Origin: Candidatus Magasanikbacteria bacterium RIFOXYD2_FULL_41_14
GTDB lineage: Bacteria > Patescibacteriota > Patescibacteriia > Magasanikbacterales > GWA2-37-8
DNA: 44,233 nt
Assembly: GCA_001784475.1 (NCBI GenBank)
Contig: MFRE01000022.1
Location: forward strand, 1-44,233
Direction: 5' to 3'
This document shows positions 25,631-40,486 of the stretch, piece after piece (position 1 is the stretch's first letter; the number at the start of each line of letters is the position of its first letter). A program made the translations under genes and the position numbers. The notes under the pieces are model-generated. The model saw only the letters and a program-made list of their open reading frames with translations. It did not search any database and had not been told where the DNA came from.

Positions 25631-25714
25631 GCCGGGGTGACGAAATTGGCAGACGTAACAGCCTTAGAAGCTGTCGGCCGCAAGGCCATGGAGGTTCAAG
25701 TCCTCTCCCCGGCA
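25631..25714 (+). tRNA. tRNA-Leu(TAG)
   Basis: GCCGGGG...CCTTAGAAG...CCCCGGC, long variable arm; loop CTTAGAA. Confidence 0.92.
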
Positions 25715-25715
25715 C

Positions 25716-25851
25716 AAGAAGCGACCCAATAGTTTGGGTCGCGACTGAGGACTTGAACGCCGGAACAATATCCGCTCGCGCGGACGTGAGGCGGTGGTTA
25801 GACAAAATTTTCTCAAAAATTTTAGTCGAAACCAAGTCCTCTCCCCGGCAC
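25716..25851 (+). other. tRNA-3'-end-associated structured element (Leu copy)
   Basis: Downstream of tRNA: hairpin, antisense T-arm gaggacttgaac (25747-25758), GC hairpin, AAAATTTT hairpin, then direct copy caagtcctctccccggcac (25833-25851). Confidence 0.65.
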
Positions 25852-26933: not shown

Positions 26934-28389
26934 AAAACGACAAAAATTTACGAGCCGGAGGTGAAGGAAATTTTGTGTCAGTTAACAATCCGCCTCGGGT
27001 GGATATACAATTAAATAAAATTTGACAGAGATCCTGAAACAAGTTCAGGATGACAACTAGACAATAAATATTTTCGCAGTTCGCGACGCCAGTAAAAAAA
27101 TTTTACTAGCATCGCGGATTATGAATGACCGTACTTTGACAATTTAGTAAAGCAAATCAACAAATAGGGTAAGAGTAAGCAAAATTAAATTTGCGAAAGC
27201 ACAATTTGGTGTTTTCGTTGTACGCAATTTCAACAAGGGCACACGGTGGATGCCTTGACACTAAAAGACGATGAAGGACGTTGCAGGGTGCGATAAGTCT
27301 CGGGGAGGTCCCAAGCTACCTTTGATCCGGGAATTTCCGAATGGGGAAACCCTCTGTCGTAAGACAGAATCGTATACTGAATACATAGGTATACGAAGAA
27401 GACCTGGTGAAGTGAAACATCTCAGTAACCAGAGGAAAATAAATTGAAAAGATTCCCTTAGTAGTGGCGAGCGAAAAGGGAGCAGCCTAAACCGTATAAA
27501 TGTTTCTGTAATTGATGATTGATCTTCGGATTAGTTTGAAGTTTCAGATTAAAGGACAGACCGTTGTTTATACGGGGTAATAAGATGTAAACGCCGTTTT
27601 CTGTTAAGATGGGTGAAAAATTAACATTCCTAGTAGAAGGTCTCTGGAAAGAGCCGCCAAAGCGGGTGATAGCCCCTTACGCGAAAGGAGTTAATAATTC
27701 ATAGTTTATATTCTTGAGTAGGGCGGAACTCGTGAAATTCCGTTTGAATTTGGGCCGACTATGGTCTAAGGCTAAATACTTTTAGTGATCGATAGTGAAC
27801 AAGTACCATGAGGGAAAGGTGAAAAGCAGCCCGGTGAGGGCGATGAAATAGTATCTGAAACCGTGTGCTTACAAAGAGCCGGAGCCCGCAAGGGTGACGG
27901 TATTCCTATTGAAGAATGAGCCTGCGAGTGTGTGTATGTCGTTGCTTAAGGGCCTATGGTCCGAAGGCACAGCGAAAGCGAGTCTGAATAGGGCGACCAA
28001 ATAATGGCATATATATAACCCGAAACCGGGTGAGCTACCCATGACCAGGATGAACGACGCCGAAAGGCGTCGGGAGGTCCGAACCCACGAGCCGTGCAAA
28101 ACTCGGGGATGAGTTGTGGATAGGAGAGAAATTCTAATCGAACTCGGTGATAGCTGGTTTTCCTCGAAATAGTTTTAGGACTAGCCTCGAGCGTTTCTAC
28201 TGGTGGTAGAGCACTGGATGAAAATCGGGTCCTTCGGGATACCATTTTCAACCAAACTCCGAATACCAGAATGTATAGCTCGGGAGTCAGACAGTGGGGG
28301 CTAAGCTTCATTGTCAAAAGGGAAACAGCCCAGATCGCCAGCTAAGGTCCCTAAATCCATATTAAGTGTAAAAGGTGGTGTTAATTCTC

Positions 28390-28456
<67 letters not shown>

Positions 28457-28528
28457 AGTTTTCGCGCCGAAAATGTACCGGGGCTAAAATATGGTACCGA
28501 AGCTGCGAACTTCAGTGCGTGGCACTGA

Positions 28529-28646
28529 GAAATGTAAAAATAAAATATCAAAAATCAAAATTAAAGTGTTCGCTTCGCTCACCGATTAAATTCGGTCGCG
28601 TAGCGACTCCGCAATTTTCCATTTTGATATTTACATTTTGATTTTT
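28529..28646 (+). mobile_element. intervening sequence in 23S helix-45 region (copy D of the S23-type element, no ORF)
   Basis: aaatgtaaaaataaaatatcaaaaatcaaaattaaagtgttcgcttcgctcac...ccattttgatatttacattttgattttt; interrupts aagctgcgaacttcag...gctggattggtagaggaacattcc. Confidence 0.8.
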
Positions 28647-29083
28647 CAGCGTCGCGCGCTGGATTGGTAGAGGAACATTCCTTGTGCGCTGAAGTCCTAG
28701 GCGTGAGCCGGGGTGGAGCGCAAGGAAGGGAGAATGCAGGCATAAGTAACAAAAATCCGGATGAGAATTCCGGACGCCGAAAATCCAAGGTTTCCTGGGC
28801 AACGAGAATCGTCCCAGGGTTAGTCGATCCTAAGGCCAGGCCGAAAGGCGTAACCGATGGAAGAGCGGGTTAATATTCCCGCACTACTTAAGATTTGGTC
28901 AGGGTGCGCATTTTTGAGCTTAAAGCGTGTTTTGAATATATACGTTGCGCAAGCATGAGATGAAGCCTTCGGGTGGAGTCAAATTTAGGGGATAGAATGC
29001 CCAGAAAAGCCCAAAGCCGTTAAATTTTAAGTATCCGTACCGTAAACCGACACAGGTGGGTGAGGCGAGAAGCCTAAGGCGTA

Positions 29084-29114
<31 letters not shown>

Positions 29115-29347
29115 ACAGCGGCCGTAACTTCGGGATAAGGCCTGCCCTCTTCGGAGGGTTACAACAAAAGACGCACTGCGACTGTTTAACAAAAACACAG
29201 CTCTCTGCAAAAGCGTAAGCTGAAGTATAGAGAGTGATGCCTGGCCAGTGTCAGAACGTTAAGGGGAGAGGTTATTCACCTTCGGGTGGAGAAGCTTTGA
29301 GCTGAAGCGCTGATGAACGCCGGCAGTAACTATAACTGTCCTAAGGT

Positions 29348-29608
29348 AGTGAACTCAAAATTTGAGTTTACTAGGATTGGGACGGTTGTAGCAAATATTA
29401 AACACGCATCTTGATCAGCAAAGTGATCAAACATAGCCATTCAAAAAAGCTACCTTGCTTCGCAGTAATGCGAAGAGTAATCCGCTTACAGCTAAATGCC
29501 ATTTAATTGGCAGGGAAGCCATTTGGCCCCAAGAGACTATACGCTGTGCCCCGTTCGCCAACTCGCGAACGGATGAAGATTTAGTCCTACGCAAAAAAGG
29601 AAGCGTCG
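29348..29608 (+). other. group I intron at 23S L1931 site, no ORF
   Basis: 5' exon ctaaggT | intron ... gtcG | AGCGAAATTCC 3' exon; P7-like GACTA (agagactatacgc) / TAGTC (gaagatttagtcc). Confidence 0.8.
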
Positions 29609-30144
29609 AGCGAAATTCCTTGTCGGGCGAGTTCCGACCTGCACGAATGGTATAACGATGGTGCGACTGTCTCAACGAGGGACTCGGTGAAATTGCAAGA
29701 GAGGTGAAGATGCCTCTTACCCGCAACTAGACGAAAAGACCCCGTGAAGCTTTACTACAACTTGATATTGACACAAGCTTATTTATGTTCAGTGTAGGTG
29801 GGAGCCGCAAGGCGACAATGAGACACCACCCTTAACTAATTTTGTGCCTAATTTTCTCCCATGAATCTGGGAAAGAAGACAGTGTCTGGTGGGTAGTTTA
29901 ACTGGGGCGGTTGCCTCCCAAAAAGTAACGGAGGCGTTTACAAAGGTCAGCTTAGGTCGGATGGAAATCGACCTGGACGTGCATACGCAAAAGCTGGCTT
30001 TACTGCGAGGACAACAATTCGAGCAGTCGCGAAAGCGGAAGTAAGTGAACCGACCATCTCTCATAGGAGAGTGGAAGATCAACGAATAAAAGCTACTCCG
30101 GGGATAACAGGCTGATCGCGCCCGATAGTCCATATAGACGGCGC

Positions 30145-30180
<36 letters not shown>

Positions 30181-30216
30181 AGCTGGAGAAGGTTCCAAGG
30201 GTTTGGCTGTTCGCCA

Positions 30217-30252
<36 letters not shown>

Positions 30253-30995
30253 AGACACTTGCGACCTAATATGGTAACATATTAGTAAAATTAAGCTTAT
30301 ATCGGTGAAACCCTCCTTTCTAAAAATTTGACCGAACGGAAAGAGGGCAATACCGAGGGAAGAGAATTCGTCAGTGTGATTTTGACCAATGAAGAAAAAG
30401 CATATATTGCCGGCTTCCTCGATGGAGACGGAAGTATAATGTTTCAATTCATCCGACGCAAAGATTATGTTAATGGCTATCAAGTTCGTGCCAGTATTGT
30501 CTTTTATCAAAAAGACATTCACGTGGCGCATCTTCGGTGGCTAAAAACAAAATTAAATAGCGTTGGGTATGTACGGATCAGAAATGATAATATGGCTGAA
30601 TATACCATAGTTGGTATTCAGTTAGTACTCCAAATTTTGGAGCAATTAAGTCCATATTTAAGGTTAAAGAAATCACATGTGGACGTGGCCAGAAAAATTG
30701 CTAATCTGCTGCCGCGCTATCAACGTTTAGATAAAAAATTACTGTTAAAAGTCGGTAAATATATTGACCAATTTCAGCAATTAAATTATTCGAAACGTCG
30801 GCGCAATACAACTATGGCAGTAAGAAAATTTTTTGATACTCCCCGTAACGACTGATTCCGAAAGGATGAGATTTATGCGTCTAACGCATTTATCATACGC
30901 TTGGCCCCTACTCCTTGAAAAAGGACAAGAGGGGCGTGATATAGTCTATACCATTAGAAATAGTGGATTAAATTAATATAATATATTAATACATG
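30253..30995 (+). other. group I intron at 23S L2593 (I-CreI) site
   Basis: 5' exon gaacgtcgT | agacacttGCGACc (IGS GCGAC pairs GTCGT, U.G at splice); 3' acatG | GAGACAGTTCGG; P7-like GACTG / gatatAGTC. Confidence 0.88.
30328..30855 (+). CDS. LAGLIDADG homing endonuclease, I-CreI-like (true start probably GTG/TTG downstream of 30328)
   Basis: YIAGFLDGDGSIMFQF...VGYVRIRNDNMAEYTIV...LEQLSPYLRLKKSHVDVARKI...LLKVGKYIDQFQQLNYSKRRRNTTMAVRKF parallels remembered I-CreI motifs. Confidence 0.9.
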   Translation: MTERKEGNTEGREFVSVILTNEEKAYIAGFLDGDGSIMFQFIRRKDYVNGYQVRASIVFYQKDIHVAHLRWLKTKLNSVGYVRIRNDNMAEYTIVGIQLVLQILEQLSPYLRLKKSHVDVARKIANLLPRYQRLDKKLLLKVGKYIDQFQQLNYSKRRRNTTMAVRKFFDTPRND

Positions 30996-39888: not shown

Positions 39889-40058
39889 GTGCCCCCGGAG
39901 AGGATCGGCTTTGACTCAAATTTTCTTCCAAAAATTTGGTCTAGCCACCGCCTCCCGATCGCGCGGCGTCAGTTCGGCCGCGCGATATCGGTCCGGCGTT
40001 CGATCCTCTCGGTCGCAACCAAATTAAAACAATCCACATAAGTGGATTGTTTTAATTT
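39889..40058 (-). other. tRNA-3'-end-associated structured element (Arg-TCG copy)
   Basis: minus strand: hairpin, gagaggatcgaacgccgg (antisense T-arm), GC hairpin, AAATTTT hairpin, direct copy gatcctctccgggggcac. Confidence 0.65.
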
Positions 40059-40059
40059 G

Positions 40060-40131
40060 TGCCCCCAGAGAGGATCGAACTCCCATCTTCAGGTTCGAAG
40101 CCTGATGTCCTATCCATTGAACGACGAGGGC
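40060..40131 (-). tRNA. tRNA-Arg(TCG)
   Basis: GCCCTCGTCGTTCAATGGATAGGACATCAGGCTTCGAACCTGAAGATGGGAGTTCGATCCTCTCTGGGGGCA; loop CTTCGAA. Confidence 0.9.
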
Positions 40132-40399: not shown

Positions 40400-40486
40400 T
40401 TTCTCGCCCCGTAGAGAACCAGCGGTTCTTCTACCGGGGAGCTAGCGGCCCGTAAGTATTTGTATTTATGATAATCTCATTTAACC
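40400..40486 (-). other. 5'-half copy of tRNA-Lys plus its upstream sequence, D-loop hairpin insertion
   Basis: gagctagcggcccgtaagtatttgtat at 40333-40359 repeated at 40439-40465; aatctcat[c/t]taac also repeated; hairpin ccccgtagagaaccagcggttcttctaccgggg. Confidence 0.65.

Follow-up and report, generated by a model that had tools for sequence, protein, structure and literature searches.

A structured element inserted in the T-loop of tRNA genes of Patescibacteria and re-fitted to new tRNAs

Comparison of genomes shows that a short structured element, widespread in Patescibacteria, is inserted specifically at tRNA genes and has been repeatedly re-fitted to new tRNAs, while the mechanism behind this is not shown. 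We describe it from a window of 44,233 nucleotides, i.e. the whole analysed stretch of contig MFRE01000022.1 of Candidatus Magasanikbacteria bacterium RIFOXYD2_FULL_41_14, in which it lies at a tRNA-Arg and a tRNA-Leu gene. The comparative evidence comprises a filled/empty locus pair, a tRNA kept whole, a conserved fold, within-genome kinship of cores and tandem arrays.

Anatomy of the Arg and Leu insertions

The features of the Arg insertion, with their basis in brackets, are as follows:

40059..40131, minus strand: tRNA-Arg(TCG), the target gene (ARAGORN, Rfam)
39907..40076, minus strand: the entire insertion of 170 bp, starting at R57 of the T-loop and ending with the final C of GCC (delimited by the empty site in G001, L404)
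40059..40076, minus strand: replacement tRNA 3' end (nt 57-74), GATCCTCTCTGGGGGCAC (sequence)
40021..40058, minus strand: spacer hairpin with a T-rich arm, at the terminator / P0 position (sequence)
40002..40010, minus strand: left arm GAGAGGATC, complement of tRNA nt 57-65 and 5' strand of the closing helix P1 (sequence and family test)
39907..40001, minus strand: conserved core GAACGCCGGA...AAAGCC, a three-way junction with P2 and P3 (folding, covariation)
39956..39991, minus strand: P2, a variable hairpin (covariation, folding)
39939..39952, minus strand: conserved motif GGCGGTGGCTAGAC (sequence)
39907..39946, minus strand: P3 hairpin GGCTAGAC...AGTCAAAGCC (covariation, folding)
39889..39906, minus strand: original tRNA 3' end, now displaced, GATCCTCTCCGGGGGCAC; forms the 3' strand of P1 (equals the G001 tRNA-Arg 3' end, with the same flank after it)

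The insertion point is the C56/R57 boundary of the T-loop. In G001, the only other sampled genome of the same genus, tRNA-Arg(TCG) is empty: its 3' end, CTCTCCGGGGGCAC, is followed by the flank gacgcttagcgtcgtta... just as the displaced copy is in the window, and about 170 nt 3' of the gene equal or closely match the DNA after the window's second tail copy. The window's intact tRNA-Arg reads CTCTCT, versus CTCTCCGGGGGCAC in G001 and in the context of the displaced copy, and the replacement tail differs by one base from both. Since the G001 end and flank match the window's second copy, the latter must be the original end, moved downstream; this sets the insertion at 170 bp and places its right junction at C56/R57. 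The tRNA-Arg remains whole because the inserted unit brings a tRNA 3' end with it, the original end being pushed downstream. An empty site, a restored gene end and a displaced original end together meet the criterion for an integrative element at a tRNA site, and demonstrate insertion at the level of DNA without showing in what form the unit moves. This is the only filled/empty pair with matching flanks that was found: G018 and G023 likewise have an element at tRNA-Ser(CGA) where G021 has none, though with flanks that were not aligned. Precise loss via the 18-bp direct repeat remains possible and would give the same picture.

The second element of the window is organized likewise:

25631..25715, plus strand: tRNA-Leu(TAG), its target (ARAGORN)
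25698..25833, plus strand: Leu element, a 136-bp insertion from R57 to ACC (sequence; covariance-model match 25746-25842, E 3.1e-23)
25721..25742, plus strand: P0 hairpin, GCGACCC-AATAGTTT-GGGTCGC (sequence)
25747..25754, plus strand: left arm GAGGACTT, complement of tRNA-Leu nt 57-64 (sequence)
25755..25833, plus strand: core (sequence, comparison with the Arg element)
25834..25851, plus strand: copy of the tRNA-Leu 3' end AAGTCCTCTCCCCGGCAC (sequence)

The sequence GGCGGTGGYTAGAC occurs exactly twice in the window, while a covariance-model search finds five element copies in the source genome. A preliminary description, made from the sequence alone, had called the Arg element the second copy of the Leu one, a count that is thus corrected to five. 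Every motif it quoted was recovered (40058-39889, minus strand; Leu element, 25716-25851, plus strand), but two of those it offered as shared core motifs, ATATC and the AAATTTT hairpin, fail family-wide, being variable. The coordinates it gave are exact, but the terminal stretch that it read as a copy of the tRNA 3' end is the displaced original end, and the unit runs 40076-39907.

Two further features of the window were recorded: a degenerate tRNA-like remnant upstream of tRNA-Lys (40405-40465, minus strand), which shares 92% identity with the 5' portion of the tRNA-Lys region, and a LAGLIDADG_1 homing-endonuclease ORF (30328-30855, plus strand; E 3e-10) directly 3' of a complete 23S rRNA (27223-30297) and before the 5S rRNA (31356).

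A conserved three-way junction beside many tRNAs

The core folds as a conserved three-way junction with strong covariation. The strand carrying the Arg element reaches z = -6.8 against shuffles when folded as RNA and z = -6.5 when folded as DNA (0/200 shuffles as good), and among 35 homologues two-sided changes affect 21/31 pairs, with 212 two-sided cells observed, compared with 72 after shuffling and no more than 34 when the structure was slid. The compensated helix changes claimed in the preliminary description thus held. Neither of the outcomes it had named as refuting, a lack of covarying homologues or a known Rfam family, came about: the element has no match above the gathering threshold in Rfam 15, where only tRNA and rRNA matched, and at E up to 1 only weak miRNA matches appear, on the spacer hairpin. 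A known Rfam family was accordingly rejected.

Along the tRNA the unit runs nt 57-74, spacer, left arm, core, and nt 57-74 again, for a length of 99-230 bp across the family, and no cargo was seen in units of this size. The core has the layout GAACGCCGGA-P2-GAGGCGGTGGYTAG-P3-GCC, and the left arm and the second tRNA-tail copy form P1, which shows either an exact match to the tRNA (TT versus AA, TC versus GA) or a tandem G-A motif (YGA-GAAC versus GCC-GA). GAACGCCGGA, GGCGGTGG and the hairpin positions are conserved across the family, and a second class of elements has GGCGGGGTCG...GTGACC replacing GGCGGTGGYTAG...GAAGCC. A P0-like hairpin is found in 72/86 members versus 6/86 when shuffled, a terminator-like hairpin lies between tRNA and core in 28/86, and the spacer often holds a partial complement of the acceptor strand (p=1.4e-4). 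Additionally, a mini-hairpin, CGAACGAAGTGAGCG, with tandem G-A pairs and a GAA triloop, recurs between tRNA and P0 (in the spacers of L009, L013, L014, L030, L033, L035 and others).

A sequence-pattern search was positive in 13/114 relatives, with zero matches for reversed-pattern controls, and two covariance models, R1 and R2, recovered the element from 37 and 48 of 379 Patescibacteria genomes, respectively (E to 1e-38 for R1; these values are rough owing to short calibration). Most of the genomes are fragmented assemblies, many of them probably MAGs; the highest copy number is 29 matches in one genome (G523). Beyond Patescibacteria, one of 45 genomes was positive (E 1.8e-4): Elusimicrobium MAG RUG12883 (L475, 530-785, minus strand) has the same architecture at tRNA-Ser(TGA), with the terminator, P0, a left arm that matches, the copied tail and part of a second unit. 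It could come from mis-binning, which is not excluded. Initial scans of viral and genome collections with sequence patterns yielded chiefly chance matches, lying in protein-coding genes of GC-rich bacteria; the real ones left by filtering were from Patescibacteria or unnamed-bacterium bins.

A same-strand tRNA ends -1 to 107 nt upstream of 86 of the 117 distinct elements, versus about 0.3% by chance, and the targets span 36 isoacceptors. The copy of tRNA nt 57-72 is a perfect 16/16 in 44 of these 86, and the mean match is 13.9/16 versus 8.8 for the tails of other tRNAs; the copied nt 66-73, largely outside the covariance model, are 92% identical. That the closing helix always matches the adjacent tRNA, as first claimed, therefore largely holds family-wide. 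The other 31 elements are second tandem units, contig ends, relics, or the form seen in genus g145; tandem units occur at L269, L322, L327, L346 and L475. In the g145 form an additional tRNA copy, adjoining an intact tRNA, has its T-loop interrupted by the core, in the order T-stem GCAGG, hairpin, core and GAATCCTGC. Where the two tails differ and the left arm pairs with only one of them, its partner is the tail of the intact tRNA, and not the displaced copy, at 47/59 positions, as expected if arm and tail arrived jointly. Genomes of genus g145 (L325, L332, L333, L480) also show another repeat of ~190 nt directly after tRNA genes, CTCGAGATTTGTTTCGC...AATGTACACAAAA...TTTTGCACAAGAATCGAAGAACTC...GAGTCTCGGAGCTACC, possibly a second family of tRNA-tail elements.

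The conserved fold and the matched acceptor and T-stem strands might suggest a structured RNA serving the host, e.g. one that regulates tRNA supply or acts as a tRNA-like decoy, duplicated with tRNA tails by chance. We consider this very unlikely: the distribution is patchy, different tRNAs are used in each genome, close relatives have empty sites, and there are tandem arrays and degenerate copies without a tRNA.

Spread between tRNAs and the search for a mover

When cores were compared without their arms, 33/86 elements had their nearest neighbor in the same genome, versus 2.1 in shuffles, and only 1/86 at the same isoacceptor. Likeness by genome and not by tRNA means that cores spread within genomes and are fitted to different tRNAs. 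Thus, G017 has cores 98% similar at tRNA-Asn and tRNA-Pro, and in G018 one and the same 30-nt insertion marks the cores at an Arg, two Ser and a Pro tRNA, so that the retargeting inferred in the preliminary description holds. The G017 Pro copy (L275) keeps an Asn-type inner arm, hence fitting can be incomplete. The presence of the same element at different sites among close relatives meets a general criterion for mobile elements. Gene conversion between resident copies possibly contributes to the within-genome likeness; as the sole explanation, a tandem-gene-conversion model was rejected, failing to explain the filled/empty pair (G000/G001).

These observations lead to the proposal, which we regard as having equal chances of being right or wrong, that this is a gene-less minimal mobile element integrating between C56 and R57 in the T-loop of tRNA genes and moved in trans. 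The enzyme, the direction of mobility and the choice between DNA and RNA are inferred and not shown. Under this proposal the fold would be the recognition signal; a folded, probably single-stranded unit would be recombined with the tRNA T-arm, as the integron integrase acts on attC, by an enzyme supplied in trans, for which a resident XerA/XerD-like tyrosine recombinase is the only candidate that all tested genomes possess; and the left arm would be re-made or corrected after the jump by hairpin-templated copying, such that the element fits the new tRNA.

A PF00589 protein is present in all 58 genomes tested (38 carriers and 20 non-carriers), with exactly one in 25/38 carriers; three such single proteins that were examined are XerA/XerD-like. 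As Xer is universal, its presence is no test of its involvement, and a resident Xer acting on the folded unit is merely the most economical guess, no enzyme having been tied to the element. Carriers and non-carriers were not phylogenetically matched, and the counts show only that no tested family is necessary. None of a dedicated tyrosine integrase, a Y1 transposase, a reverse transcriptase or Cas1 tracks the element. Y1 transposases occur in 19/38 carriers versus 5/20 non-carriers and are absent from G018, G017, G138, G199, G086 and other carriers, several of them copy-rich. An integrase of its own, encoded by or accompanying the element, is not in evidence (no cargo; a single PF00589 protein in most carriers), nor is an integron integrase with an attI platform beside it, most carriers having single XerA/D-like proteins. 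The source genome separately encodes an integron-integrase-like tyrosine recombinase (L376, 1441-2307, minus strand; integrase_gron 249.5 bits, cut-off 265); proteins of similar size occur in carriers and non-carriers alike.

Alternatively, the units could be relics or satellites of a larger integrating element (virus, plasmid or ICE), moved by a trans-acting tyrosine integrase that is rarely resident, the core being its attachment region. A T-loop crossover with a restored tRNA 3' end is typical of tyrosine-integrase elements at tRNA genes, and some positive genomes do have extra integrases. However, two specific patterns found no match in 2.9 million viral contigs, phage and plasmid collections gave none either, no cargo-bearing version was seen, and integrases fix on one tRNA, as opposed to 36 isoacceptors with fitted arms. 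We therefore find this unlikely; a viral or plasmid origin was rejected on the same searches.

Insertion of the Cas1 type (casposon or CRISPR-like), duplicating an 18-bp target site where the tRNA ends, is suggested by the 18-bp direct repeat of the tRNA 3' end and by the arrays, both of which resemble casposon insertion at tRNA genes. It is all but ruled out: Cas1 occurs in 1/38 carriers versus 2/20 non-carriers, there are no terminal inverted repeats and no defined left end, and the crossover is at C56, not near the tRNA end.

RNA-mediated mobility is a possible but less likely rival, with the core as a structured RNA, possibly a ribozyme, that inserts as RNA into the T-loop, or is reverse-transcribed beside a tRNA-like end, and returns to DNA via reverse transcription and recombination. 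Favoring it are the strong RNA-like structure with GNRA-like loops and tandem G-A pairs, the g145 insertion exactly within the T-loop, and the acceptor-strand complement in the spacer, which might let the unit take on the fold of a tRNA acceptor/T arm. Against it, RVT_1 is missing from the copy-rich G009, G138, G162 and G199 and is not clearly enriched (19/38 carriers versus 6/20 non-carriers), all interrupted tRNAs seen adjoin an intact copy, making splicing unneeded, and the terminator-like hairpin, where present, parts tRNA from core. The RNA reading implied by the transcript-cleavage assay first suggested is thus not established. A self-splicing intron was rejected: tRNAs at the canonical site are intact, the interrupted g145 tRNAs have an intact neighbor, and no tRNA depends on removal.

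GNRA-like loops and tandem G-A motifs suit RNA and DNA alike. In the distal pairs of P2, G-U/G-T makes up 1.2% versus 6.4% in host tRNA stems (p=2.5e-5; the count is not independent across relatives), while over all pairs the frequency is 6.5%, equal to tRNA stems. With only P2 strongly depleted, this was rejected as proof of DNA folding; together with the intervening terminators it is kept as a hint that folding may occur at the DNA level.

Relation to known elements and significance

The closest parallels are integron attC sites and cassettes, which share an imperfect hairpin-forming site, variable terminal structure, conserved boundary boxes and arrays. A Xer-related tyrosine recombinase acting on a folded single strand would be a further parallel, for our element by inference only, although it folds well as DNA (z = -6.5). 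It differs in targeting the tRNA T-loop and not attI/attC, in lacking a cargo gene, in being a 110-nt three-way junction with its own conserved sequence and a tRNA-specific closing arm, and in that most carriers have no dedicated integron integrase. With tRNA-targeted prophages, ICEs, genomic islands and satellites it shares the T-arm crossover, the restored 3' end, the displaced original end as a direct repeat, and tandem accretion; unlike them it is 99-230 bp, gene-free and not bound to one tRNA, with a conserved fold and arms complementary to the tRNA. Casposons likewise insert at tRNA genes with a short direct target repeat and possible arrays, but they encode Cas1 and PolB and are marked by TIRs and by TSDs of 14-15 bp right at the 3' end of the tRNA (PMC6977970), whereas the element lacks Cas1 and TIRs and crosses over at C56. 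REP/RAYT palindromes and MITEs are also short, structured, noncoding, multi-copy and trans-moved; here, in contrast, the Y1 transposase is missing in several copy-rich genomes, there are no terminal inverted repeats, and only tRNA T-loops are used. Elements of the CTX-phi type use a folded single-strand attachment site recombined by host Xer; they are, however, phage genomes targeting dif, to which the element has no likeness. Its anatomy matches no described element that we found, and no prior description was found in the open-access literature searched (subscription papers and preprints were not covered).

A bolder reading, which we think more apt to fail than to stand, is a new class of mobile DNA: gene-less, ~170 bp long, with the universal T-arm sequence as attachment site, a closing helix rebuilt for each target, a housekeeping recombinase as mover and any tRNA gene open to it. 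That the element represents a new kind of mobile element is a possibility it does suggest. In the annotation of Patescibacteria genomes it accounts for pseudo-tRNA tails and for tRNA ends that lie displaced, and a new family entry can be made from the covariance models. Gene-less parasites are not expected in streamlined genomes such as those of this phylum, yet the element is widespread there, and it raises the testable question of Xer acting on folded DNA in bacteria without integrons. If the proposal is true, it would be among the smallest known integrating elements, and one whose recognition site is rewritten by its target, such that a single core could use dozens of tRNA genes.
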